From NCBI GenBank assembly GCA_033220425.1, contig CM065653.1, positions 4,092,001 to 4,156,000 on the forward strand: 64,000 bases of DNA. Reading direction: 5' to 3'. The notes under the pieces were generated by a model. The model was not told the DNA's origin. It saw nothing but the letters and a program-made list of their open reading frames with translations, and ran no database searches. Position 1 is the stretch's first letter. Each line of letters opens with the position of its first letter. The translations under genes and the position numbers were made by a program. Source of the DNA: Lepraria neglecta. Taxonomy: Eukaryota; Ascomycota; Lecanoromycetes; Lecanorales; Stereocaulaceae. Below are positions 24,849 through 64,000 of the stretch, one piece after another.

Positions 24849-25550
24849 GTTATATTTCCCACCACCAGCAACGCAGTTAGAATATCTATTAGAGTTATCG
24901 CCTACCAGGTATTATTTACCGCTAGCAACGCATTAGGAACACGGCCTTATTGCGACTTCGGATAGCTTACTAGCTAGCTCCGTTCGGCGGACGGACGGTT
25001 TACTTAAATATTTAGTATAGTAGAGTAGTATAAAGGATAGATGGTTTCTCGGGACGAGAAATCTAGGAGAGGGAGCTAATTTTAGGACCAGAAGCTATAA
25101 TCAGGGATGCGTCTACGGGCGTAGCGCCTATTATAGTATAAGTCGGACTAGATAATACTCGACTCGGACAAGACCCTGAGGGCTTGGTATACTAAATGAT
25201 AAGCGCAACGAGCGCAGTGCAATCAAAGCGATCCTCAAGGATAAGTATAACGAGCGCAGTACGATCAAAGCGATCCTGAAGTGCTTAGCGGACTTTCGTA
25301 TATCTATATATATATAGAGTATTTACTCGCTACTTGGAGCATCGTACTTAACTTGCTATTCAATTATTTACTATATACGATAGATCTCTTAGGCTAGGTA
25401 CTAAATATATATTATCTAATTATATACTAGACCCGCTTAGTATTACTTGAAGCCTACTTCATCTCTTGTGTAGTTATACCTCTATCCCCATTGAGAATCA
25501 ATTAAGGATCTACCGGTACGCACGGACTAGGTTCGTAACACTCGGGGTGC
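24849..25550 (+). mobile_element. 3' end of a plus-strand Gypsy-A (Gypsy-A3) with its LTR
   Basis: Sequence at 10756-10772 continues at 24849, showing that Gypsy-A2 jumped into this older copy. A purine-rich tract (about 25062-25078) leads into an LTR at about 25080-25550 ending GGTTCGTAACA. The LTR shows fewer RIP changes than others in the block. The rest of this element lies left of 10756 and is cut by the Gypsy-B LTR. Confidence 0.7.
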
Positions 25551-25623: not shown

Positions 25624-26043
25624 TATACGTATAGTATATATATTCTATACTATTAACTAAAAAGGGTAATTAGATAGACTAATAGGAAGTTTAAAACTAA
25701 ATCTAATCGAGTAATTAAATTAGTTTACTATATTAAATACTAAAATCTATTTAGACTAAGTCTTATAATCGATTAGGATATAACTTTTTACTTCGTTTTA
25801 GAGTAAAGTACCTTATCTTTAGGATAGGCAATAGATATAGATTGATAATAAATCTAGTAAATAGTTACTAGGAAGAGATATTCCTCTAAAGCCAGATATT
25901 AGTGCGCCAAGGCGCCAAGATAGGGCTGGGCTCTATGGCTAGACTCGATCAGATAGCGCTCTAGCTATAATCGTAACTAGGTACCTTAGTCAGGTAGTAC
26001 TCGAATGAATTACTCCAGTCATTTTTCCGGGCAGCCCCCCTAA
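25624..26043. other. Transition from RIP-damaged repeat to gene island
   Basis: AT-rich up to about 25880, then of ordinary composition with normal CA/TG frequency. No ORF, repeat or RNA gene was recognised here. Confidence 0.6.
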
Positions 26044-26120
26044 ACGCCGCAGGCCCATACTAGAAAATACGGGTACGGTAGTGGACCCGTGGTCGGCATC
26101 TTAGGTAGGGCCTGCGGCGT
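26044..26120. promoter_or_regulatory. 13-bp perfect inverted repeat upstream of the FAD oxidase
   Basis: ACGCCGCAGGCCC (26044-26056) and its exact inverse (26108-26120) are separated by 51 bp. The site lies about 530 bp upstream of the FAD oxidase start, at the edge of the island. It could form a stem-loop or be a paired protein-binding site. Function unknown. Confidence 0.5.
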
Positions 26121-26285
26121 GTGGCGTTGCCGTGTGGCTGGCAGGGAAACGGGCAACTTAACTTAGCGTCTCAAGAGCCGATCAAACCTCCCGCCAGCCG
26201 CTAGCCCCGTTTATACTTTATATCCACCACACCTCCCACCTCCACCTCCAATGTGGTACAGCGTCTGCGAGATCGCATTGCTCTA

Positions 26286-26320
26286 CTCTGCACTGCACTG
26301 CACTGCACTGCACTACACTC
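26286..26320. repeat. (CACTG)n pentanucleotide microsatellite
   Basis: Four perfect CACTG units followed by two one-base variants, about 335 bp upstream of the FAD oxidase start. Confidence 0.85.
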
Positions 26321-26653
26321 TTTGGGAAGTCGGATGCAGTTCTTCATATGTCGCAGGTTGCACGACATGACATCGAAATAGAGTTGGCCGAAATATGCCA
26401 AATCCACCGAACTCCGAATCTGCTTCTCTTCTCGCCTTCGAATCGGAGCGCTGAACTATCCACACCCCGCTTTTGCTTGCTCATATGTTTCGTCATCACA
26501 ATCAAGCGGCAATTCTGGCCCCTCCACATGCATGTGTTTTTGAACACCTAGTCTAATCGATGGCGCAGCGGAAGAAGGAGTCTATACCTGTCAATACATG
26601 AAGCCGAAGGGAGTTGCGAGGACTGATTTGCCATATTTCAACCTTGCTAAGCC

Positions 26654-28387
26654 ATGAACTTCTCATTGTCAATTTTTCATCTTCTTTCTGTACTCGTGAC
26701 AGCATTTGCTCAGACTGGCCCAGAAGTAGCCTTATACTTCAGAAAACACCTCTCAAACACGTCTGCGATTTATCTTCCCCCTGAAAGCAATTATTTGTTG
26801 GAGACTACTCAAAGATGGAACGCTTTCAGTGCGCCGACATATATCATTTCTGTGAAACCGACTACCGATTTGGATATCCAGAAGATTGTGCGTTCATTTG
26901 ACCCAAGCAAGAGCCAAATTGGACCAATCTATAAACCCACGCCGCTGACAATCTCGGGGACAGATCGAATATGCTTTCCTACACAACATATCATTTCTCG
27001 GCACAGGTGGCGGGCATAGCTACTCAGTAACTCTAGATACAGTCCAGAACGGGATTGAAATCGACCTTGGCCATTTCGACAGTGTCTCCATCGACCAAAC
27101 TGCCAATACTATGACCATTGGTGGAGCTGTTCACTTTGCCAATATCACGGACCCACTGTACGATGCTGGAAAGGAATTTCGTACGTGAATAGTTGTCAAT
27201 GTTTCTCTCCACCATCACCGTCCCAAGAGCGTATACTAAAACATTTGTTCGCAGAAGTTGGCTCGTGCTCCTGCGTTGGCATCCTTGGAGCTACACTCGG
27301 GGGCGGTGTCGGACCCTACGGAGGTTTACATGGTCTTCAGATCGATGCTCTCAAGTCCGTCAGAATGGTTACAGGTACTGGTTCTCTCATCGAAGTCTCA
27401 TCAACCAGCCACCCCGATCTCTGGTGGGGCATGCGAGGGGCGGGCTTCAACTTCGGCATTGTTACATCAGCCACGTACCAAGTCTATAACTTTACACACA
27501 ACGGCCAAGCCATGAGTGCAGACTTCAGGTTTCATGCCATCCAGAACGCATCCCTCTACGAATTCGCGCGGTCTTTCATAGGCAAAATGCCCGATGCCTT
27601 TTCAATAGACATAGCAATCGCTTACAACGAGTCGTTCGGAGGCGTCAGTCATCTCCCCATGGCCATCTACTACCAGCTAACATTGCCCCCAGACTTACCT
27701 CTTTGCCAACTTCATTTACGTAGGCCCATTGAAAGAGGGCATCGCTCTTATCCAGCCATTAATCGACCTCGAGCCCTTCGACCAAATCGTCACCATGATT
27801 CCCTGGAAAGACATCGAGACTTCGTCCAAATTCGGCGTCGACGCTATCGCCTGCATCAAAGGCAACTTCCATAGCGTTTGGGGCCTGAACCTCTATCAAA
27901 TCGACGTGCCCACTCTCATCGCCGCAGTCAACTACATGGACGCCGTCTACGCGCAGCACGCCGACTTCCGCTTCGCGTTCCTCGCAATAGACATGTACGC
28001 GTCTCGAGTCATCGAGTCTATCCCTGACGATGAAACTGCCTATCCGTTCCGAAGTGCTGTCGCACGCTTGTATGTCAAATTCCCCTTCTTCCGCTTGGTT
28101 TCCGTAAATATGTTAACAGCCGGCCCTCTAGCCTCCTCGATGTCGGATTCTCAAACAGCTCTCGAGCTACCGCCGCGTCCCAAGTCGGCCGCACTGCGCG
28201 AAGCATCTTCATTCCGACGAGTGGTGCAAGCACAAGCAACATCGAGGTCTATGTAAACTATGGACACGGCGACGAGGGGCAGCTGGGATGGTACACGGAG
28301 CGGAAGCTGCCGCGGCTGAACAAGCTCAAGAATAGATACGATCCCAATAGGCTGTTCTCGCACTACAACGCGTTGGAGGCAACTTAA
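26654..28387 (+). CDS. Secreted FAD-linked oxidase, BBE-like (PCMH-type FAD domain)
   Basis: Predicted 494 aa from five exons: 26654-26887, 26964-27180, 27255-27643, 27693-28069 and 28120-28387. The four introns are 49-76 nt with GT/AG ends; exon lengths total 1485 nt and the frame is kept throughout. An N-terminal hydrophobic stretch (residues 1-19) ending AFAQ is a signal peptide. The PCMH FAD-binding fold shows GTGGGHSYS with His96, and GSCSCVG with Cys155, the positions that carry covalent flavin in glucooligosaccharide-oxidase relatives. The BBE-type C-terminus (NYGHGDEG, later RYDPNRLFSHYN) is complete. Family members oxidise alcohols, amines or phenols with O2, often in secondary metabolism; the substrate here is unknown. 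It points towards the O-methyltransferase gene, end to end, 616 bp apart. Frame changes that might suggest a pseudogene are all explained by the introns. Confidence 0.9.
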
Positions 28388-29003
28388 CACGTACTCAAGT
28401 TCTAGTGATAGTGACTGAAGGTGGACGAATTGGGAATACCGTTGGGCTGGAGTCGTTAGCTGCGGCGATGAACAGATTTGACATGACAATTGTAGTTCAA
28501 TGGATGGAAATGTGTCGCGGATGTTTCTTGAGACCGCACTTCGGAAACAGGAGTGTGCGAACCTCGTTTGATCTCCAGCTTTGTGTAGTCAAAGAGAATC
28601 CCGTCTCTTCCCTAGCCCTCCGTCCGTCCGTCTCCTTGCCCCCTCTCTCAATCGTCCCGCCCCTCCCTCTTCTCGTCGAACCCACTCCCCCGTTATCATA
28701 GACCCCACCCAACCCCACTCAGCCTGTAAGCGTGCCATCCATCCCAACCACAAGCGCCTAATTCCCATAATAGTCCTCCACTACAGACCTCATCACAAAC
28801 GCCACCCTGTCCGGGATCACTCTCGAGTTTTTGCTAAGCTGGCTAGGTGGTTACACTAGGCCGTATAGGGTGTAGTTAGGGCGATACACAACCTTAACAT
28901 AACCACAGCCAACAAACTTGTACTCTAGTGTTTTCCTCGCCAATACGAGGGTTGCCCGGGTAAGATACCTTAATTGAGAAGAACTCTAATTCACAGAAAG
29001 GTC
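28388..29003. other. Convergent intergenic region, FAD oxidase / O-methyltransferase
   Basis: Shared 3' flanks of two genes. A pyrimidine-rich stretch (about 28600-28700) gives chance ORFs. No conserved coding sequence or RNA gene was recognised. Confidence 0.6.
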
Positions 29004-30510
29004 CTACGATACGCCATGCCCTTCCCAAGCAGCCTCGATAAACGCCATTTGAGAGCCGGGTGGATCCTGAACTCCGAGAAAACGAAACCTCTCATCTGCT
29101 TCTCGAAACAACTCGGCCCAATCGTGGCGTCCACGTTCTCTCGCATTCAGCATGGCCATCATACCCAAGTCAGATGCTCTGTGGTAAATGATTAATAAAG
29201 CGACCGTCGAGTGTAGCTGCAAAAGTCTGCAGTGGATGGGTAACTGACCGCATTTTCTTCTCAAGGGTAGACGGAAGAGCATGAGGCTCTGGTAAGCAAA
29301 TGTCGCTGATCAAGATCCGCGCACCATATTTGAGCGCTGGTACTAGGCTTCTAAGAATCTTGATCGAGTACTTATCTGACCAATTGTGGAAGATCCGGCA
29401 GAAAAGGTAGACATCTGCCGCCTTCGCTACCTCGGGTGGCTCAGTGAAGAAATCATGGGCTGCGAATGTGACGCGAGACTTGAGATCTGAAGGTATCTTG
29501 GACGGACCATCGGCCACGACTTCCGGAAGGTCCAGCACGATACAGTGAAGGGATGGGTATTTTTCGGCAATAGCTATGCCACGACTTCCGTGCGATCCTC
29601 CTACATCAATGATAGTCCCTTTACCAATGGCACCCCAAGGATAATGCTTGAGTAGGGCTGATATTGCCGAGCCATGTCCGGATTCAAACATACTCATGGC
29701 ATCTGCAAATCGTTTCGCACGGGTAGCATTCTTTCCAAGCTCTACAAAGAATGGAACACTAGTGTTTTTCGCGAGAGCAAACCCCTGTTATATATTCGTC
29801 AGCCGGATAGATACTGACGTTGCGAAGGATAAGGTTTCACCGTGTGCTCTGGCTCTTGGGATCTTGGCCAGCGTTCCAGGGCATCAACGGTCTGCCAGAT
29901 GAATTAGTGGATACCCTATAGCTTGAGTCACATGGTTGCCTGACCCGTGCCGCTGCAGGCCATGATTCCTCACATATCATCTCGGCCCATGCCCGCATCA
30001 TAGGGTTCTCGTTCAGTAATTTGGAGGCTGCTGTATGAGTGATCATATTGTTGTGCTCTTTGAATATGTAATTGGTCATGGATTGGCGCATTATTCGGCG
30101 CAGAGTTAGTTCGTCCAATCCGCATTTATCAGAAATCTGCGTATATGATGCTTCCTCAGAGAAAGACTGGGCAATCTCAAAGTGGCAAATAGCCTGAAGG
30201 CTTATAAGATCAATGTACTATTGTTTTCGATCAGTCAAAATTGCTTCTGTCGCAAGTAGCAAGCCTAACATACCATTAAGGCATTACTTCGTAACATGCC
30301 TATGGGTCCAAGAACCAATGCCTGGAGCTCAGAGATTGCTTCCAGTATAGCGGTCTGTGTTTCCTGCAGTTCCTCCGATGGCGGCAACTTTGCAAATGTT
30401 GAGGGATCAAACGAAGGAGAAGGGAGCTTGTGTAATGCAAGCAGTTCTTCAAACTTCGTTGTGCTGGTCATAACAACCGACGCTAAGTCCATAATTCTGG
30501 AAGACGGCAT
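29004..30510 (-). CDS. SAM-dependent O-methyltransferase (class II, PF00891 type)
   Basis: Predicted 415 aa from five exons on the minus strand: 30274-30510, 29945-30193, 29841-29891, 29249-29784 and 29004-29178. Introns of 80, 53, 56 and 70 nt have GT/AG ends; exons total 1248 nt in frame. The start at 30510 has an A at -3 (CACCATG); Met7 is an alternative. The N-terminal half is the helical dimerisation domain (residues about 1-170). SAM motif I is IIDVGGSHG (237-245), followed by LDLPEV (263-268). The catalytic base is most likely His312 in RIFHNWSD. Length matches fungal O-methyltransferases of polyketide and aromatic pathways. It likely methylates a phenolic hydroxyl in the cytosol. It is divergent from the CmcJ-like gene with a 540-bp shared promoter. 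Confidence 0.9.
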
Positions 30511-31050
30511 GGTGCTTTGGTCGTATATCGAACGAACTTCGTGAACTATGAACGATTAGTGGAATCGAAATGCAAAATAGAGAGAAAGATTTGGAACTGG
30601 AAGCCTTCAAATTACACCTCGGATCAGTAAGTGCTGCAATGAGAAGGCAACAGCACTCAACGAAAATACGCTGGGTTCCTGGTATGTTTATGGCACCGAA
30701 AGTCATTGCGGGTTAACTGTTCGGGCCGAATTTAGGTCTACCCCAACCCTAATTAAACCTCCGAATTTGGAGTTGAGCTTCGGCGCATTTAACCTGATCT
30801 GACGGCAGGCCTGGAGACAGAATCCACTCATTATGCATGTATGATCATCCAATGCGTCTTGAAACACTCGGGGTAACTCGGCAATGACGATGATCACACG
30901 TCACTTCCACATGTTGCTGGTTTCATCTCGTATAGACCGATTTTCTTCCTACGTATTACCTGATTGTGACCCTTTGTTGTATCTTCCTGAGTCCGTACGT
31001 TTACATATAACTTATCGTTGAAATCATACTACAGAAAGCTAGCATCCACG
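30511..31050. promoter_or_regulatory. Shared divergent promoter of O-methyltransferase and CmcJ-like gene
   Basis: 540 bp between the two start codons. It contains GGGCCGAATTT (30723-30733) and CTCCGAATTT (30759-30768). The CCGAATTT core also occurs twice in the exporter promoter repeat (34389-34528), and a near form, CTCCGAATCT, lies at 26412-26421 ahead of the FAD oxidase. Short ORFs in this interval have no recognisable homology. Co-regulation by one factor is an inference. Confidence 0.5.
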
Positions 31051-32193
31051 ATGTCCCCTACTACCGTAACAGAACCACTCTCAACTACTCCCATTACCTA
31101 TGGCAAGCTACGATATGTTACTGCTGACTGGGCCCCTAAGGCGATCTCACAGCCTTTCGGACTGCCTGACGTCTCCGAATATGGTGATGAGCGCCTTATG
31201 CCAATCCACGACATCCGCCCTCTTCCAACCGTCGATGAGCTTCCAACCGCGAAAGAGGGCACCGCGCAACTCTTAACCCATGGGTTTACAGCTGTCAAAC
31301 ACTCCTCCAGCTTGCATTCCAGCCCATACACTGCCGCGAGTTGGCGCAACCCCGAACTTGTCCAAAAGGTCTACGTCGCAGAAGTGGAAGAGATGTTGAA
31401 ACGGATAACGGGTGCACAAACAGTGATCACGGAAGTTCTCCTCATGCGCGGCACCCCCAAGAGCGGACACGACGTCCCCTCCACCAACACCAGCCACAGC
31501 CAAGATAATTCAACCAAGGGAGCACCAACCGAAGCCCCCGAGAAGACCCAAGCCCCCCTCCCGGCCCATCTCCAAGACAAGACATTATTCAAACTCAGAT
31601 TCCCCAACCCTATCGGCTTCTCCCCCGTCTTTGGCGGCGTACCTCCCGCCCCCAAAACCCACCTCGATTTCACCCCTGGGGGTGCCCGCACTCACATCCG
31701 GCTCTTCCATCCCACCCTGACCGCCGCGAGCGCCCGCATCATCGCCGCCGAAGACCGCCTCCTTGCCGCCAACCTGCCCCTCGCCACCCATTACTCCACC
31801 GCCCCCGATGCGCCCCGATGGGCCATCTACTCCGTGTGGCGCCCGCTGAAGCCCGTGAAACGCGACCCGCTCGCTTTCGGCGACGTGCGCTCCTTTGTGA
31901 AAGAAGACTATGTGCAGATCGACGTGCCGGCGCCAACCATAGGGTCGGATGGGGAGAGCAAAGGCATGCACATCATGAAGGCGTATGTGGCGAGGGGGAG
32001 CGAAGGGCATCGTTGGTGTTATGTGAGCGAGCAGATGCCGGACGAGGTACTGGTTATTGGGCTCTGGGATAGTGACCGGGAAGGGGATAGCGTGGCGGCG
32101 GGAGGGGCGATGCATAGTAGTGTGGAGTTACAGGGGCGGGAGGGGGAGGAACCGCGAGAGAGTTTGGAGTTGAGGTGTTTGGCGATATGGTGA
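31051..32193 (+). CDS. CmcJ/AsaB/NvfI-type oxidoreductase (GA4-desaturase-like)
   Basis: Single exon, 380 aa from the ATG at 31051 (A at -3). The open frame extends 33 nt upstream to a TTG, which is not a likely fungal start. Family hallmarks are an N-terminal LRYVTADW strand near residue 20, a Trp/Arg-rich core (YSVWRPLKPVKRDPLAFGD, about 260-278) and a C-terminal MPDEVLVIGLWDS segment. The HLD triad pair at His204 and Asp206 with His355 fits the HxD...H iron site of Fe(II)/2-oxoglutarate-type members such as NvfI. A Pro/Thr/Ser-rich linker (about residues 135-175) is longer than usual. Members hydroxylate, desaturate or endoperoxidise metabolites, and some have been described as methyltransferases, so the reaction is unknown. 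Its 3' end is 282 bp from the convergent exporter gene. Confidence 0.85.
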   Translation: MSPTTVTEPLSTTPITYGKLRYVTADWAPKAISQPFGLPDVSEYGDERLMPIHDIRPLPTVDELPTAKEGTAQLLTHGFTAVKHSSSLHSSPYTAASWRNPELVQKVYVAEVEEMLKRITGAQTVITEVLLMRGTPKSGHDVPSTNTSHSQDNSTKGAPTEAPEKTQAPLPAHLQDKTLFKLRFPNPIGFSPVFGGVPPAPKTHLDFTPGGARTHIRLFHPTLTAASARIIAAEDRLLAANLPLATHYSTAPDAPRWAIYSVWRPLKPVKRDPLAFGDVRSFVKEDYVQIDVPAPTIGSDGESKGMHIMKAYVARGSEGHRWCYVSEQMPDEVLVIGLWDSDREGDSVAAGGAMHSSVELQGREGEEPRESLELRCLAIW

Positions 32194-32475
32194 GGGTTGA
32201 TGGTTGGAGTTGTTGCGCTATGCATGTGGCGATAGATCAGAGTACAGTCTTCAACAGATTGAGATTCCTGAATGTCAATCATGACTCGCGCTGCTGTTCT
32301 TGAACTCAAAAGACTACAGCCATACGTTACGGGGGGGAGACCGGACAAGGCATACGGATGGGTCTTGGCAGATAGTTTTCTTCAAGGACAAAGCTGCAAT
32401 CGGCTCGACATAATTATCACACCAAGAAGCAGAATTGTAGTAGAGTGAGTAACTATCATTTCATGCTCTACTTCT

Positions 32476-34241
32476 TCACATAGTATCCACAGTCCTTTCC
32501 TGCGCTTCTGCAACTACTTGACCATCCTTTTTGCCCTTCACACTCCTCCACTCCACAATGAATGCTCCAACAGCAGAAAAACATGCCGTGGCTAAAGCAA
32601 CCTTATACGCATCTGTTAACGCACCATTGTAAGCCAACAGCACAACACCGAGATCTTTCGCGGGGACCAGATTCCTAATCTCGGTTGCTCCAGTATTCAC
32701 CACATTGATAGGATCAAGTCCGGACACGTCGTTCAGCCCAGAGACTAGACTGTTTGTGAAAACAGTCTGGGCGATGGAGACAAAGACGGCGCCACCAAGT
32801 GCCTGCGCGAAAAACATCAGAGACGCGCCGATTGGAACATCTTGTCTCGAGAGGACGGTCTGAGCTGCCAGATTGGGTTGCTGCATACCCAGTCCAAGGC
32901 CTATACCAAATAAGATCTGATAGCTGATCCATTCTGCAGCACCCGTATCTGTTTGGAACGTTGTCAGAAGACCAGCGCCAACAGACATAAGAATGGTGCT
33001 AAAGATCATGAAGGGAGCGTAGTATCCTATAGCAGCAATAGCACCACCTGCAGCAATACTAGCAATTACCAAGGAAAGCATCAAAGGAAGGTTCCTGATG
33101 CCGGACTCAACAGCGCTTACGCCCATAATCGCTTGGAACCAGACTGGGAGATAGAAGACCATTACTATCATCGAAGCTCCGAGACAGAAAGCGGAGCAAA
33201 AACCGGATGCCATACTCCGCTGTTTGAGAATGCGAGGAGGGACCGTTGCAGTTTCTTGCTTCCAGCACTGCACAGCGATGAAGGCAGATGCGAGAACTCC
33301 GGAAATCACGAGTAACGCGATAATCCGCCCATCTTTCCAAGCGTATGTTGATCCTCCCCATTCTAGAGCTAGGAGCAGACACACGATGCAAGGAAGGAAG
33401 AAGAGATTTCCAAGAGGATCAAGCTGTAGGAATTTCTGCTGTAGTGAGTTGCCAGAAGTTTTCTGACTAGGTAGTTTGAGGATGAGAACGATAATCAGGA
33501 CCGTCAGAGCACCGATAGGGAGGTTTACATAGAAGCACCATCGCCTAATATTGATCAGAGGATGTAGCAGATGCCAGGAGTGTGGTGGAAAGCATACCAT
33601 GTTACACGATCAGTGAAAACGCCACCAAGCAATGGCCCCATAACCGACGCAACACCATAAAGTGCTCCAATGAGACCTTGATAGATTGACCGTTTGGAAA
33701 GAGGAACAATATACACCATAATGACGATTGCTCCCGAGAATATGCCAGAGTTGCCTAAGCCCGCGAAGGCTCGCCCCACTATAAAGGCGACAGAACTCGG
33801 TGCGGCACCGCAGAGAGCGGACCCAAGCTCAAAGAGGCCGATGGCGACCAGGAAGACCCATTTGGGGGAATAGAACGTATATATCCGTCCAAAGAGTAAC
33901 TGAGAGGCGCACTGGGCGAGCAGGTATGCACTTCCGTACCATCCAGTGTCACCCAGCGACTGGAAGTCATCGGTGATACGGGGAATGGCTGTAGCAATAA
34001 TTGTTCGATCCTACACGTTCGGTCAGTTTCGATTATGAGCCTCCAATGCAGAAAACCGTACGAGAGCGACTAGAAACACGGCGAGATAGAGGGCAAGCAT
34101 GATTAAGGCCAGGGCTTTCCCCTTCGGATAGACTGTCTGGTCATCATGCTGCTCCGAGCTCGAGATGGAGATCGAAGGTTCCTTCTTCGCAACCTCTGTT
34201 GATTTCTTTTCTTGCTCACCGGTCGGACGCTCTTCGGCCAT
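32476..34241 (-). CDS. DHA2-family major facilitator exporter (14 TM)
   Basis: Predicted 553 aa from three exons: 34062-34241, 33598-34010 and 32476-33544. Introns are 51 and 53 nt with GT/AG ends, total 1662 nt in frame. The first 40 residues are charged and cytosolic. TM1 begins near residue 43 and runs into [11 protein letters not shown] (60-70), the motif near TM1 of DHA drug:H+ antiporters. Motif A is [11 protein letters not shown] (101-111) and motif C is [12 protein letters not shown] (179-190). The rest is a long hydrophobic body with 14 expected helices and a Lys-rich tail. Relatives in fungal clusters export the pathway product or give self-resistance. Its promoter carries an exact 70-bp duplication. 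Confidence 0.92.
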
Positions 34242-34388
34242 TCCGAACGACGTTTGAAGACTGTTCGAATCTCACGTGCTTATGTGTTTTTTCCAATGCT
34301 TGGAGGGCAAAGGTCTTGCTTTCTGGACTTCCACTCGTTATTCTGTACGTATATACTCTGAATAGAACAATTGTGAGCAAATGGAAGG

Positions 34389-34528
34389 ACTGATGCGGAT
34401 GAATGCATGATGAAATCCACCGAATGGGACGGGCCGAATTTTCGGAGGCGGGATACCGACTGATGCGGATGAATGCATGATGAAATCCACCGAATGGGAC
34501 GGGCCGAATTTTCGGAGGCGGGATACCG
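34389..34528. promoter_or_regulatory. Exact 70-bp tandem duplication in the exporter promoter
   Basis: Units 34389-34458 and 34459-34528 are identical. Each holds CCGAATTTTCGG, an everted CCG-N6-CGG arrangement of the kind bound by Zn(II)2Cys6 factors, and CGGGATACCG, an inverted CGG-N4-CCG. Each also has AAATCCACCGAA, which recurs once at 26400-26411 ahead of the FAD oxidase. The module lies 148-287 bp upstream of the exporter start. The lack of any difference between the units implies a recent duplication. Confidence 0.85.
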
Positions 34529-34879
34529 TGCGCAATAAGTTGCGTGACCTGCCTGTAGCTAAGTCACAGATAAGGTACATGTACTTTGGCAAGACTTAGG
34601 TAAGCTCGGTAGTTTTCATGCATCTTTATTCTGCTAATAATATTTCCCGGTTGTTGAGAACCCTAGTCTGCGGAATGATAATACCTTGATCAATGAAGAT
34701 GTTGAACCATGGTTATGTAAGGTAGTGTGCAATTTTGAATCAATCCAAACATCTGCCATTGATACTTCTCGTTCGTCAATATCTCTGTAGTCCAAAAGTT
34801 TGGCCTGAAACCATCGTTAGCAATTCAGATAACTTGACAGACATATAACCCTCTATACCAGACTTACTCTGTGAGTGTA

Positions 34880-35917
34880 CTAAATCAGACAAATGTTGAC
34901 GGCGAGGACCTGTCCCCCAACTGTGTCATTTCCACCCGTTGTCACATATATTGTGTTCTCCGCCTGTTTGGACCCTCGTCCAAACTGTGCCGACGTAGGC
35001 TCTGTCATTTCTATGTTCTGGCCGTTTCCTGTGATATTCCTCTGTTTTCCTTCTACAGTAATCTCATTCAACATGTTCCCATGAGTCGCAATCCATGCGG
35101 TACCTTCCCAATCCATGTCGAAATCATCATATATCGCAGGTAAATTTATTCTCGCAAGTACCTCCACCTCTCCAGCTGCACTGCCGTCAGCATTAAGAGG
35201 GACACGGCCGTAAGCCCCTTGAGCTGAATTGAGGTAATAAAGATGTCCGTCAAAGGTACGAAGGCCGTTGATCCCTATGGGGATTATGCTGGAATTGGCG
35301 AAGAGAGGACTTTGGATGGCAACGCTGTATTCACCCGAGGTCACATTCAGCCTTCCTACGGCCCCTAGAGCCGAATCGGCGGCAAGAACAATATCGGGTG
35401 ATCCCTTCAGAGTCGTTAACCCGTTCAGGGCAGCAGCTTCGGGTATCGAAGCAATAATCTTCACCGTTGGTTGAGGATGATTGAAATCGACCGACCAAAT
35501 GGAAAAAGATCCTGGTGTCCCCTGAAATGTCTCACGCGACCAATTCCCAGCGACGACAGCGAAGACGTCTGGGGCCGTTTCGACTATACCTGTCAGACTG
35601 GTAACACCAGGGATTCGGGGCAGAGGTGTCGGGGGTGCATTGCGAGCATTAGGATTCATGTCGTATACGATTGGTTGGTTTGAAACCGTAAGAACGAGGT
35701 GGCCATTTGAGCGAGCGGCAAGATTCTCTAGGGCAACATGACCTTTGAATTGGTAGATCAATTGGACAGCAGAGGATGGTGCTGCAGCAGCTTCGGTCTC
35801 TATGACAGGGCCGCCGACGGATTGTAAGACCAATTGATTAGCCGGGAATGAGAATGACGATGGAAGTGTGAGAACATTGAAAGGAGCAAGAAGCAGTATC
35901 AGAAGTAATCCGAGCAT
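34880..35917 (-). CDS. Secreted SMP-30/gluconolactonase-like beta-propeller protein
   Basis: Single exon, 345 aa from the ATG at 35917 (A at -3). The frame is open 189 nt further upstream, but the start chosen puts a clean signal peptide first (residues 1-17, ending NVLTLP), and the upstream extension looks non-coding. The body has recurring propeller strands: ALNGLTTLKGSPDIVLAADS, GINGLRTFDGHLYYLNS and DDFDMDWEGTAWIATHGN, typical of fungal SMP-30/gluconolactonase-like proteins. Five N-glycosylation sequons (NWS, NVT, NSS, NIT, NDT) fit secretion. Acidic and Asn residues in the strand ends could bind the divalent metal used by this fold. Activity is not predictable: lactonase, hydrolase or a non-enzymatic binder are possible. 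It is transcribed in the same direction as the exporter, about 640 bp upstream of it. Confidence 0.82.
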   Translation of the reverse strand: MLGLLLILLLAPFNVLTLPSSFSFPANQLVLQSVGGPVIETEAAAAPSSAVQLIYQFKGHVALENLAARSNGHLVLTVSNQPIVYDMNPNARNAPPTPLPRIPGVTSLTGIVETAPDVFAVVAGNWSRETFQGTPGSFSIWSVDFNHPQPTVKIIASIPEAAALNGLTTLKGSPDIVLAADSALGAVGRLNVTSGEYSVAIQSPLFANSSIIPIGINGLRTFDGHLYYLNSAQGAYGRVPLNADGSAAGEVEVLARINLPAIYDDFDMDWEGTAWIATHGNMLNEITVEGKQRNITGNGQNIEMTEPTSAQFGRGSKQAENTIYVTTGGNDTVGGQVLAVNICLI

Positions 35918-36540
35918 TTTCAGAAAGATTCTGAGCGGGCAGTGTGGTAGGAATAATGGTAATGGATAGGACAATCTTATGATTAATTCAGTAACAACGT
36001 TTTGTCTGTTACCCTTGGGGCTCGTTGGGGTTATAAGCATTGAGCACCCGTCCCCGCACACGCTCGACCCCGCTTTGCCTTCTCCACCATCTGATGGCAG
36101 AACCATCCACTAGATTGCTGAGGTATCAAAATTTCTCGGAGTGCCGTAAAAGCTTGTTATGTCGTGGAAACGATCCCGATTCGCACTTCATGTAGCACTG
36201 CATACAACAAATCATTCCTTGATCGCTCGAAAACTCTACCCAATCGAAGTACTTGATGTTTCACCGAACATGGGTATCGGCCTAATGACCAATTCGAGGG
36301 GACAACAGAAAGCTTGGTACTTGCTGCTCACCTCCTAGTGTAGATAGACTCGCATTGTCGAGGCAGGCTTACACATTTCCAAAAGCAGGAGAACGCAACA
36401 AGGGAAAGCACCACGCAACTTGAATGTAGTCAGTTAGTGTTCTGTCTCACGTGCTACCGGTTGTGGTACGGAGAATGACACCAAATGTCTTGAATCCGTG
36501 GCATACTAGTTAAGCCGTTTCTGTCCACTTCGCACTTAGT
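35918..36540. other. Upstream region of the SMP-30-like gene; right edge of the island
   Basis: Ordinary composition, no ORF with recognisable homology. AAATTTCTCGGAG at about 36129-36141 loosely resembles the inverse of the CTCCGAATTT motif. Composition becomes AT-rich from about 36550. Confidence 0.5.
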
Positions 36541-36960
36541 GCCCTTAGTTTAATGTATTACGAACACAATACACACTTTTATTTTGCAAGCTTTATAGCA
36601 ACTCCAATAACTCCAACTTCTTTTAACTAATAGCAACTATCTATTTAGACACTAATACTAGCATTCAAGCTCCCATTATAACTGCTATCAGGGCTATAGC
36701 CTTACTTCCGATCCTTATATCGCTGCTAACGTTCCGTAGGGATATATAGAAGTATATCAGATCATTCGCCTTCCTCCCTTCCTTCCCTATACTCATTCTA
36801 CTGTATAATTCTATAACTTTCAAATGCTAAGTTAGCAATATAACGTAGGAGGCGTTCAATCCACAATTGGATACGCTTCTAAATAAGTTCTTTTTCCTAG
36901 TAGCGCGTCTAGACCTTAGTCAGAATCGCCCTGGTCCGCGAGCAGTCTTTGCGAGTTATA
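36541..36960. other. AT-rich non-coding stretch
   Basis: No repeat family recognised and no coding signal. It separates the island from the first LTR on the right. Confidence 0.5.
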
Positions 36961-37306
36961 TGTTACGAACCGTGCGTACCGGTATCGTATATGGATTATT
37001 CTCAATGGGGATGGAGGTGCTAGATGTGCAAGAGAGTGAAACAGGCTTCAATTGATGCTAAGCGGGTCTGGTATATAATTAGGTAATATATGTTCAGTGT
37101 CTAGCCTTAGAGATCTATCGCATGTAATCAAGTACAACAGATAAGGTAGTAAGTTGAGCACGATACTCCAAGTGGTGAGCAACGCTCTATATATATAGGC
37201 ACAAGAACGGAGCCGTGTTCGACTCGATCATTTCATGATCTAAATGAACCGAGTCGAACCAAGCCCATGACAGGCACTACGCCTTCCGGGCGCATCCGTG
37301 GTCATA
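36961..37306 (-). repeat. Truncated solo Gypsy-A LTR
   Basis: Starts TGTTACGAACCGTGCGTACC and follows the family LTR for about 345 bp. It is interrupted by the start of the next LTR at 37307. It is among the least RIP-mutated copies in the window. Confidence 0.65.
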
Positions 37307-48914: not shown

Positions 48915-49937
48915 TCTTTCTTCTAATAATAGATTATAAGGACTTTCGGAGCAATTCCGCACTTGTAGCCAATGAGATCGGCCCTATATTCCTTCCCCCC
49001 TGATAGTACGCTTTTCGGCCTAGCGCCTTCAACTACCAAAACTTGAATACGTACCGCAACTTCTTCGCAGTACTTCCCCGCGCCACATACACTATATGAT
49101 ATCGAGATGATTTCATAAGTTTTGGATTCAATCATTAGCTTGCTTGCGCATCAAGAATTTTTAGAATCGGCCCATTTACGCAATAGTTATGAGCAAAAGA
49201 AGCGTTTTCGCCATGTTTTGCAGGCAGCGCGAGCTCGGTAGCAGATGCCAAGCATTGAGCTTGGCGCCCCCGGACCCTGGAATATCAAAAGTTGAATGCG
49301 CACCGTAACTTCTTCGCAGTGATGCCCCGCGCTACATACGTCATATGATATCAAGATGATTTCATGAGTTTTAGAACCAAGCATGTGCTTTCTAATACTG
49401 TCAATTTTTTCAAAATCGGTCTACTTACGCAAAAGTAATGAGCAAAAGAAGCGTTTTCGCCATGTTTTACAGGCAGCGCGAGCTCGGTAGCAGATGCCAA
49501 GCATTGAGCTTGGCGCCCCCGGACCCTGGAACATCAAAAGTTGAATGCGCACCGTAACTTCTTCGCAGTGATGCCCCGCGCTACATACGCTATATGATAT
49601 CCAGATGATTTCATGAGCTTTAGAACCAAGCATGCGCTTTCCAACGCCGTTCGAATTTTGAAATTTGGTTAGAATTTCGCTAAGGAAAGCTCAAAAAACA
49701 TGTTTTTGCCTGCAGAGTTCCCTAAAGCTACCCCCGCAGCCGCCCCGGAAGTACTAATATACTAAATCCTTAATAACTTTTGTCCTATTAGGATTAGGGC
49801 TTAGCTTTATATATTAAAAATATATAGTATATATATAGCTTTATAACTCTACTTAAATTTCCTAAATCGAGTATAAGATAAGCGAGATATAGCCATTTTT
49901 ACGGTAATATTCTGTGAAGATTACGGGTACTTACTTG
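48915..49937. mobile_element. Unclassified 1.0-kb repeat with internal tandem units
   Basis: It interrupts Gypsy-A6 between GTATA and TCTCCTAATAA, which are adjacent (apart from RIP changes) in other copies. The left end (TCTTTCTTCTAATAATAG) is the same as that of the repeat starting near 63487 in a different host element. The interior holds tandem units of about 249 bp (49191-49439, 49440-49688, plus partial units on each side), followed by an AT-rich tail. No terminal inverted repeat and no clear target duplication were found. Confidence 0.65.
49191..49688. repeat. Two full tandem units of about 249 bp
   Basis: Each begins GAGCAAAAGAAGCGTTTTCG and includes CCAAGC-ATTGA-GCTTGG, a short perfect hairpin. 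Similar ORFs of 65-70 codons on the minus strand are a consequence of the repeat. The units are GC-richer and far less RIP-mutated than their surroundings. Confidence 0.8.
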
Positions 49938-63486: not shown

Positions 63487-64000
63487 TTCTTCTAATAATA
63501 GATTATCGCGACATTCGGAGCAATTCCGCACTTGTAGCCAATTAGAATATCTCTTTAGAGCTGTATTTCCTCTCTCAGCTAGCGCCTTCAACTACTAAAA
63601 GTTGAATCCGCTGCGCACTTCTTCGCAGTAATGCCCCGCGCTACATACGCCATATGATATCGAGATGATTTCATATGTTTTGGAGTTAATCATTAGCTTG
63701 CTTGCGCATCAAGAATTTTTAGAATCGGCCTATTTACGCAATAGTTATGAGCAAAAGAAGCGTTTTCGCCATGTTTTGCTTGCGCACCGTAACTTCTTCG
63801 CAGGACTTCCCCGCGCCACATACATCATATAATATCGAGATGATTTCACAAGTTTTGGAACCAAGCATGCGCTTTCCAACACCGTCAAAATTTTCAAAAT
63901 CAGTCTACTTACGCAATAGTTATAAGCAAAAGAAACGTTTTCACTATGTTTTACAGGCAGTACGAGCTCAGTAGCAAATACCAAGCATTAAGCTTGGCGC
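63487..64000. mobile_element. Second copy of the unclassified tandem-unit repeat
   Basis: Starts CTTTCTTCTAATAATAGATT like the copy at 48915, then continues with the same unit sequence in rearranged form: part of one unit is deleted around 63780. It runs off the right edge. ORFs here reflect the repeat, not a gene. Confidence 0.65.

Follow-up and report, generated by a model that had tools for sequence, protein, structure and literature searches.

Introduction

Fungal metabolite clusters are described both in AT-rich DNA and in a fragmented state. The AT-isochores of Leptosphaeria maculans are enriched in metabolite clusters (PMC4210507), Colletotrichum higginsianum has polyketide synthase (PKS) genes disrupted by transposons as well as transposons associated with clusters (PMC5576322), and the dothistromin genes of Dothistroma septosporum form fragmented mini-clusters that appear to be co-regulated (PMC3153176). 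The azasperpyranone pathway draws on two separate clusters (PMC8902786). Here we analyse a 64,000-nucleotide stretch of the Lepraria neglecta genome (42.02 Mb in 11 contigs), located at positions 4,092,001-4,156,000 of a contig called C8 below, the right end of which is at 4.488 Mb; this whole stretch is referred to as the window. It harbours a cassette of five intact genes, encoding a FAD-dependent oxidase, an O-methyltransferase (OMT), a CmcJ/NvfI-type oxidoreductase, a major facilitator superfamily (MFS) exporter and a presumed beta-propeller protein, without a backbone synthase. The explanation that we rank first, while holding it to fall a little short of probable, is that of a co-regulated satellite mini-cluster for tailoring and export in a pathway of the polyketide or another aromatic type, the synthase of which is encoded elsewhere in the genome.

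As in L. maculans, metabolite genes lie here in an AT-rich block marked by repeat-induced point mutation (RIP) amid GC-normal DNA, but the present island lacks a backbone synthase. The cassette resembles the dothistromin genes in the arrangement as a separate mini-cluster, in the shared candidate binding motifs and in the MFS gene; by contrast, the dothistromin synthase is known and other genes flank its mini-clusters, whereas repeats flank the island analysed here and no partner was found. With azasperpyranone it would share a product requiring more than one locus. However, the two azasperpyranone clusters carry four PKSs/non-ribosomal peptide synthetases (NRPSs), according to the title of the reference cited there, whereas the link of the cassette to a synthase is a candidate only. 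Clusters in AT-isochores and fragmented clusters are already known, and the cassette is a good lead more than a surprise. The value of the locus lies in the missing synthase, as no ketosynthase (KS) domain was found over 129 kb leftward or to the contig end rightward. Synthase-less sets such as this one are likely to be overlooked by cluster-finding tools, which start from a backbone synthase. Our literature search found no paper joining at least three of AsaB, CmcJ, NvfI, SMP-30, FAD-linked oxidoreductase and gene cluster.

Results

Five intact genes form an isolated island

Gene models built from the sequence placed five intact genes in ~9.3 kb (26,654-35,917 of the window), as follows (window coordinates):

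26654-28387, plus strand: BBE-type FAD-dependent oxidase, 494 aa, 5 exons (stop codon at 28385-28387)
29004-30510, minus strand: COMT-type OMT, 423 aa, 5 exons
31051-32193, plus strand: CmcJ/NvfI-family putative Fe/2-oxoglutarate oxidoreductase, 380 aa, 1 exon
32476-34241, minus strand: MFS exporter, placed as DHA2-like through its relatives EfpA and EmrB, 553 aa, 3 exons
34880-35917, minus strand: EupfF/PycR1-like (SMP-30-like) presumed beta-propeller, 345 aa, 1 exon

All the introns of these models (10/10) are of the GT-AG type and measure 49-76 nt. A base-composition walk over 264 kb revealed that the cassette is a GC-normal island within ~195 kb of AT-rich DNA with RIP marks (C8:~4,003-4,198 kb), and no other gene island can be recognised in this block. 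The RIP indices of the island resemble those of ordinary genic DNA, while those of the block differ sharply from them (values given as GC; TA/AT; (CA+TG)/(AC+GT)):

Block left of the island: 0.36; 1.52; 0.36
Island: 0.50; 0.70; 1.23
Block right of the island: 0.345; 1.52; 0.32
Right-hand genic DNA: 0.498; 0.69; 1.32

Leftward, the nearest Pfam-matching frame is an aldo-keto reductase ending at ~4,000.6 kb, 118 kb from the cassette. Rightward, the first long genic frame starts at 4,199.5 kb, 71 kb from the cassette, and has no Pfam match; the first right-hand frame above the Pfam cut-off is a DUF3533 protein at 4,203.8 kb. The window contains 16 stop-to-stop frames of at least 120 aa, 14 of which overlap the five genes; the remaining two (108-524, of low complexity, and 26162-26551) have no Pfam match. 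A few further frames of at least 120 aa occur in the AT block, some of them in low-complexity or minisatellite DNA, and none of those scanned exceeded the Pfam cut-off. They include two neighbouring frames at 4,013-4,015 kb, one of which resembles C2H2 proteins at a score under the threshold, and at 4,195 kb a frame of 132 aa. The original prediction, made from the sequence alone, had claimed five intact genes at this place, isolated by more than 25 kb of RIP-damaged DNA on each side. Gene models and family searches bear out the former, and the isolation is confirmed, the AT block being even larger. Its description of the surroundings as a repeat desert holds as regards RIP marks and isolation, but some open frames do occur in the block, although they are few and none of those scanned is above the Pfam cut-off.

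The five proteins belong to tailoring and export families

The first protein is predicted to be a BBE-type FAD oxidase from its FAD_binding_4 (PF01565, 9.5e-20) and BBE (PF08031, 2.2e-6) domains and from two conserved residues, a His in GGGHSYS (from position 93) and a Cys in GSCSCVG (from position 153). We take these residues to be those of bicovalent FAD attachment, and they suggest that the FAD is bound bicovalently. Relatives in the PDB include 5k8e, EncM and SorD. The N-terminus has a hydrophobic, signal-peptide-like stretch (residues 1-19).

The OMT harbours a Methyltransf_2 domain (PF00891, 5.1e-27), the glycine-rich S-adenosylmethionine (SAM) motif DVGGSHG (from position 247) and His320 in FHNWSD, and these features make it a putative COMT-type OMT; the roles of this SAM motif and of the catalytic His are described in PMC10784701. 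Its closest solved relatives in a PDB sequence search, matched over nearly the full length, are HpiI (9.9e-41) and 7bqj (1.7e-40). The pericyclases of the HpiI/PdxI kind, to which these closest relatives belong, have an active-site lysine, HpiI K339 being equivalent to PdxI K337 (PMC8159843). The likeness extends to Met372 of the OMT, which aligns with the position occupied by Met in the hetero-Diels-Alder type (PMC8159843, PMC10784701) and counts against the methyl-transfer reading. By contrast, the OMT has Asn321 in place of K339/K337 (the position was counted by hand on the printed alignment with HpiI), and its SAM motif and catalytic His are as in true OMTs. The PdxI/HpiI-type pericyclase was downgraded as a candidate because the key lysine is replaced by Asn321. 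Methyl transfer appears to be the better reading, since this replacement is accompanied by the retention of DVGGSHG and of the His in FHNWSD. The family group to which PdxI is assigned contains 31 characterised methyltransferases (PMC10784701); as it also includes 14 AflS-like coactivators, an AflS-type regulatory role of the OMT is remotely conceivable.

The single-exon gene next to the OMT encodes a protein that exceeds the cut-off of NCBIfam NF041278 (5e-37, 127.9 bits vs. a cut-off of 80), while no family is named by Pfam. In the PDB it matches 7eus (1.8e-17) and NvfI (3.3e-7). It retains HLD in THLDFT (from position 203), a His in AMHSS (from position 353) and an Arg in PRESLELR (from position 368), a His/Asp/His/Arg set that presumably is functional. 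Both the family match and this set of residues assign it, as a prediction, to the CmcJ/NvfI family. The exporter matches PF07690 (9.7e-42), and EfpA (5.7e-26) and EmrB (4.3e-20) in the PDB; a simple hydropathy scan detected 12 stretches, so the count of 14 helices was not reached.

The propeller protein has no Pfam or NCBIfam match. Its PDB relatives by sequence are EupfF (9.1e-19), PycR1 (3.9e-14) and the hypothetical protein 2p4o (1.8e-12), and its N-terminus has a hydrophobic stretch (residues 1-24). The earlier call of an SMP-30-like propeller stands and can be refined, in that the closest solved relatives are the fungal hetero-Diels-Alderases EupfF and PycR1, to which the protein is homologous as judged by sequence. 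In the biosynthesis of tropolone sesquiterpenoids, hetero [4+2] cycloadditions are catalysed by EupfF and AsR5, and a hetero-Diels-Alderase of this kind is encoded in the pycnidione cluster as well (PMC8902786, PMC9503010). The cassette is like these systems in the relatives of its propeller; however, their clusters carry a tropolone PKS, a flavin-dependent monooxygenase, a dioxygenase and a humulene synthase, none of which is among the five genes here (proteins compared by sequence). Homology alone does not show hetero-Diels-Alderase activity, and EupfF-like activity is not implied by it, because the hypothetical protein 2p4o matches too. If the propeller does act as a pericyclase, this small enzyme group would be widened beyond tropolone sesquiterpenoids.

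The promoters share candidate regulatory motifs

Four promoter regions were compared: 25950-26653, 30511-31050, 34242-34879 (with a 70-bp duplication counted once) and 35918-36560. Their main features are the following:

26400-26411, plus strand: AAATCCACCGAA in the promoter of the FAD oxidase gene, from the motif search
30511-31050, no strand assigned: divergent promoter serving both the OMT gene and the CmcJ/NvfI-type gene, with CGGGCCGAATTT at 30722-30733
34388-34527, no strand assigned: tandem duplication (2 x 70 bp, exact) within the promoter of the exporter gene, with AAATCCACCGAA and CGGGCCGAATTT in both copies (motif sites at 34413-34424, 34430-34441, 34483-34494 and 34500-34511)

The pentamer CCGAA is present 14 times in the four promoters, against a mean of 4.2, and a count of 14 was never reached when right-hand genic DNA was drawn at random 5000 times. 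Its density is 5.7 per kb in the cassette promoters, compared to 1.75 for the genic DNA on the right, 2.2 for the island of a broken PKS and 1.8 for a PKS locus of contig C5 (both loci are described below). The promoters also share more k-mers with each other than shuffled sequences do (10-mers, 14 vs. 4.5, P 0.005; 11-mers, 5 vs. 1.07, P 0.015; 12-mers, 2 vs. 0.26, P 0.05). CGGGCCGAATTT occurs 5 times in 42 Mb (3 times for the reversed control); three of the five sites are in the cassette, two of them in the duplication copies. The 70-bp duplication is probably recent, because its copies are identical, and it doubles two candidate binding motifs. The significance of this sharing is modest; it fits co-regulation of the cassette genes, which we regard as likely.

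No regulator was found in the window among the frames scanned, as had been predicted. Of the frames scanned, the regulator-like ones closest to the cassette are a Zn_clus frame at C8:3.996-3.998 Mb, which at 19.3 bits misses the cut-off of 21, and a Fungal_trans_2 frame at 4.206-4.208 Mb.

The nearest synthase is a broken non-reducing PKS

A six-frame search of the whole genome gave 63 KS matches, which were merged by hand into 36 places. No KS was detected on C8 beyond 3.99 Mb, up to its right end at 4.488 Mb; the nearest one on this contig (3,988,935-3,989,684) is 129 kb left of the cassette. The sole NRPS condensation domain match on C8 is at 1.51 Mb, more than 2.6 Mb away. The backbone synthase that a canonical fungal biosynthetic gene cluster contains was not found among the KS and NRPS condensation domains searched for (terpene synthases and type III PKSs were not searched genome-wide). 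The description of the locus as a tailoring and export set without a synthase agrees with this absence of KS and NRPS condensation domains near by.

The nearest KS belongs to a PKS at C8:3.987-3.995 Mb, in a 24-kb GC-normal island (C8:3,979,000-4,003,000) that lies between AT-rich blocks and borders the AT block of the cassette. It is typed as a non-reducing PKS (NR-PKS), of the C-methyltransferase type, because of its SAT, KS, AT, DH-like (PT), two ACP and C-methyltransferase domains (pieces searched separately). The KS pieces are in frames 0, 1 and 0; a gap of 22 bases separates the first piece from the second, which overlaps the third. Same-frame stops are present at 3,990,174 (where there may be an intron) and at 3,993,525 (where the stop cuts the HTH_51 domain). 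We call the gene broken because the KS frame shifts leave no space for introns and because of these stops. Its neighbours are one cytochrome P450-matching frame, aldo-keto reductase frames and a Zn-cluster-like frame (600 aa from stop to stop, E 0.0012, below the cut-off).

Related genes lie near synthases elsewhere in the genome

Paralogues were merged by hand into 45 places (OMT 20, FAD oxidase 19, propeller 3, CmcJ/NvfI 3), with the exporter uncounted. Ten of these 45 places have a KS place at a distance of no more than 25 kb, vs. 4.3% expected (binomial P 1.7e-5; the 25-kb limit was our choice, and metabolite genes cluster in general). These are 5/20 for the OMT, 4/19 for the FAD oxidase, 1/3 for the propeller and 0/3 for the CmcJ/NvfI-type protein, and they support the earlier claim that such families are typical of polyketide-type pathways. 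The best OMT paralogue (48%) starts 8.5 kb from a KS, while the next-ranked ones are not near a KS; the best FAD oxidase paralogue (31-45% by piece) is 12 kb from a KS. The closest exporter paralogues (61% and 57%) are away from all KS places.

Among the listed matches for the five proteins there is no second full copy of the set. The closest locus, at the family level, is C5:3.450-3.470 Mb, where FAD-oxidase-, OMT- and MFS-like frames accompany a highly reducing PKS with 873-aa and 1593-aa open frames. Its FAD_binding_4 and MFS_1 matches are just short of or below the Pfam cut-offs, and its KS pieces contain stop codons, which may reflect introns or damage. Judged by these matches, the locus shows, at the family level only, that the FAD oxidase, OMT and MFS families accompany a PKS elsewhere in the genome. 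The search for a synthase beside related genes in the rest of the genome gave this PKS with three of the families, but not the full set.

Possible origin and role of the cassette

If the five genes form a satellite of a pathway whose synthase is elsewhere, the product of that synthase would be oxidised by the BBE-type flavoenzyme, then O-methylated by the COMT-type enzyme and then oxidised by the CmcJ/NvfI-type enzyme. Cyclisation or rearrangement on the propeller might follow, and the MFS protein would carry the final product out of the cell. The genes could be switched on jointly by a trans-acting regulator of the Zn2Cys6 type that recognises CCGAA half-sites, and transposon growth and RIP would have left the gene set as an island in its block. 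A cassette serving a distant synthase would clearly exemplify, as a test case, how transposons can divide a fungal pathway among several loci, and would offer a candidate shared promoter motif for locating the partner.

Several results weigh against this explanation. The partner synthase was not found, and 35 of the 45 paralogue places are not near a KS. CCGAA is also somewhat raised in the cassette gene spans (2.64 vs. 1.75 per kb), and the highest-ranking 5-mer in the promoters is GTGGA rather than CCGAA (z 4.6 and 4.1 respectively; a top z like that of GTGGA appeared in 0.8% of the shuffles). Shuffled sequences match the promoters in the numbers of 6-mers (15 vs. a shuffle mean of 10.1, maximum 21) and 7-mers (1 vs. 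a shuffle mean of 0.35, maximum 2) common to all four, both of which fall inside the range of the shuffles. The motifs were picked post hoc. AAATCCACCGAA is not specific, with 13 sites genome-wide (7 for the reversed control), three of them in the cassette and two of those in the duplication copies. The CGGGCCGAATTT sites outside the cassette (C6:790,692 and C6:3,263,630) point to no clear partner, and the genome search for a partner locus guided by the two 12-mers, CGGGCCGAATTT and AAATCCACCGAA, revealed no clear one.

The main rival, which we regard as unlikely, is that the cassette survives from a dead cluster: transposons would have split it from a synthase that has since been broken, the candidate being the NR-PKS at C8:3.987-3.995 Mb, and the five genes would be intact owing to recency or to another use. 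No other KS of the contig is as close to the cassette as that of this NR-PKS (129 kb), which adjoins the AT block of the cassette and is broken, with KS frame shifts without intron space and same-frame stops. However, the link is a candidate only, CCGAA is near background in its island (2.2 per kb, compared to 5.7 in the cassette promoters and 1.75 in genic DNA), a common origin of the two islands is not required, and the NR-PKS indels could partly be assembly errors. Of the three options initially proposed, a satellite of a cluster elsewhere and a split or orphaned cluster are both kept as readings. The loose analogy to perylenequinone clusters such as that of cercosporin, drawn in the original prediction, gained no support here, where no cercosporin genes entered the comparison; the nearest PKS is the broken C-methyltransferase-type NR-PKS.

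A self-sufficient cassette modifying and expelling an imported compound, such as a plant or microbial phenolic, would need no synthase, and no KS or NRPS was found near by; the hydrophobic, secretion-like N-termini of the oxidase and the propeller and the exporter relatives EfpA and EmrB are also consistent with it. We consider it quite improbable, and it is opposed by the CmcJ/NvfI and EupfF-like relatives, which are known from biosynthesis (PMC8902786, PMC9503010). That five unrelated genes were stranded together by chance as transposons filled the surroundings is very improbable: genes of several kinds do occur in AT-isochores (PMC4210507), but all five are from families common in secondary metabolism, within 9.3 kb and with shared promoter motifs. 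We give the smallest chance of all to a backbone-free coupling station, kept as a silenceable unit in a heterochromatic block, in which the flavoenzyme would make a reactive diene or quinone methide from the product of one cluster and the EupfF-like propeller (perhaps with the HpiI-group protein) would join it, by an intermolecular cycloaddition, to what a second cluster makes; such an island would need no synthase because the joined molecules would be made elsewhere.

Transposon borders and other features of contig C8

The cassette is flanked by two long terminal repeat (LTR)-like termini:

25512-25540, minus strand: LTR-like terminus beginning TGTTACGAACC on the minus strand, 5' end toward the cassette (read directly from the sequence, with many differences)
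36961-36983, plus strand: LTR-like terminus, TGTTACGAACCGTGCGTACCGGT, 5' end toward the cassette

As the termini on the two sides are in opposite orientation, they are read as two separate insertions, and a composite transposon carrying the cassette as cargo was dropped as a candidate. The transposon family of the block occurs on eight contigs (468 first-look candidates, 40 scored). Starship cargo is unsupported, since no DUF3435 captain was found near the locus; the nearest of the 36 DUF3435 matches genome-wide to lie on C8 is at 3.625 Mb, ~0.49 Mb off (a heavily mutated captain could escape detection). Many of the 36 matches contain stop codons and may reflect old Starship-type elements. One DUF3435 remnant (C7:873,854) sits between two KS places of C7.

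Two of 16 interior C8 samples of 600 bases are also AT-rich (1.96 Mb, GC 0.35; 3.50 Mb, GC 0.30), so AT blocks are not unique on this contig. As a candidate reading, the AT block around the cassette may be a centromere. TTAGGG/CCCTAA is absent from both 600-base end samples (C8:1-600 and C8:4,487,840-4,488,439), and C8 may therefore stop short of the telomeres.

Within the AT block, minisatellites at C8:4,020,748-4,021,770 and 4,156,056-4,156,841 have long open frames with MAIWR/TWRYG-type repeats, no RIP mark and no Pfam match. Related tandem repeats in the window (49037-49645 and 63617-63952, with 249-bp and 175-bp units) are less strongly RIP-marked than the DNA around them. At 112-415 of the window, TCCTCT is repeated ~50 times in a near-perfect array.

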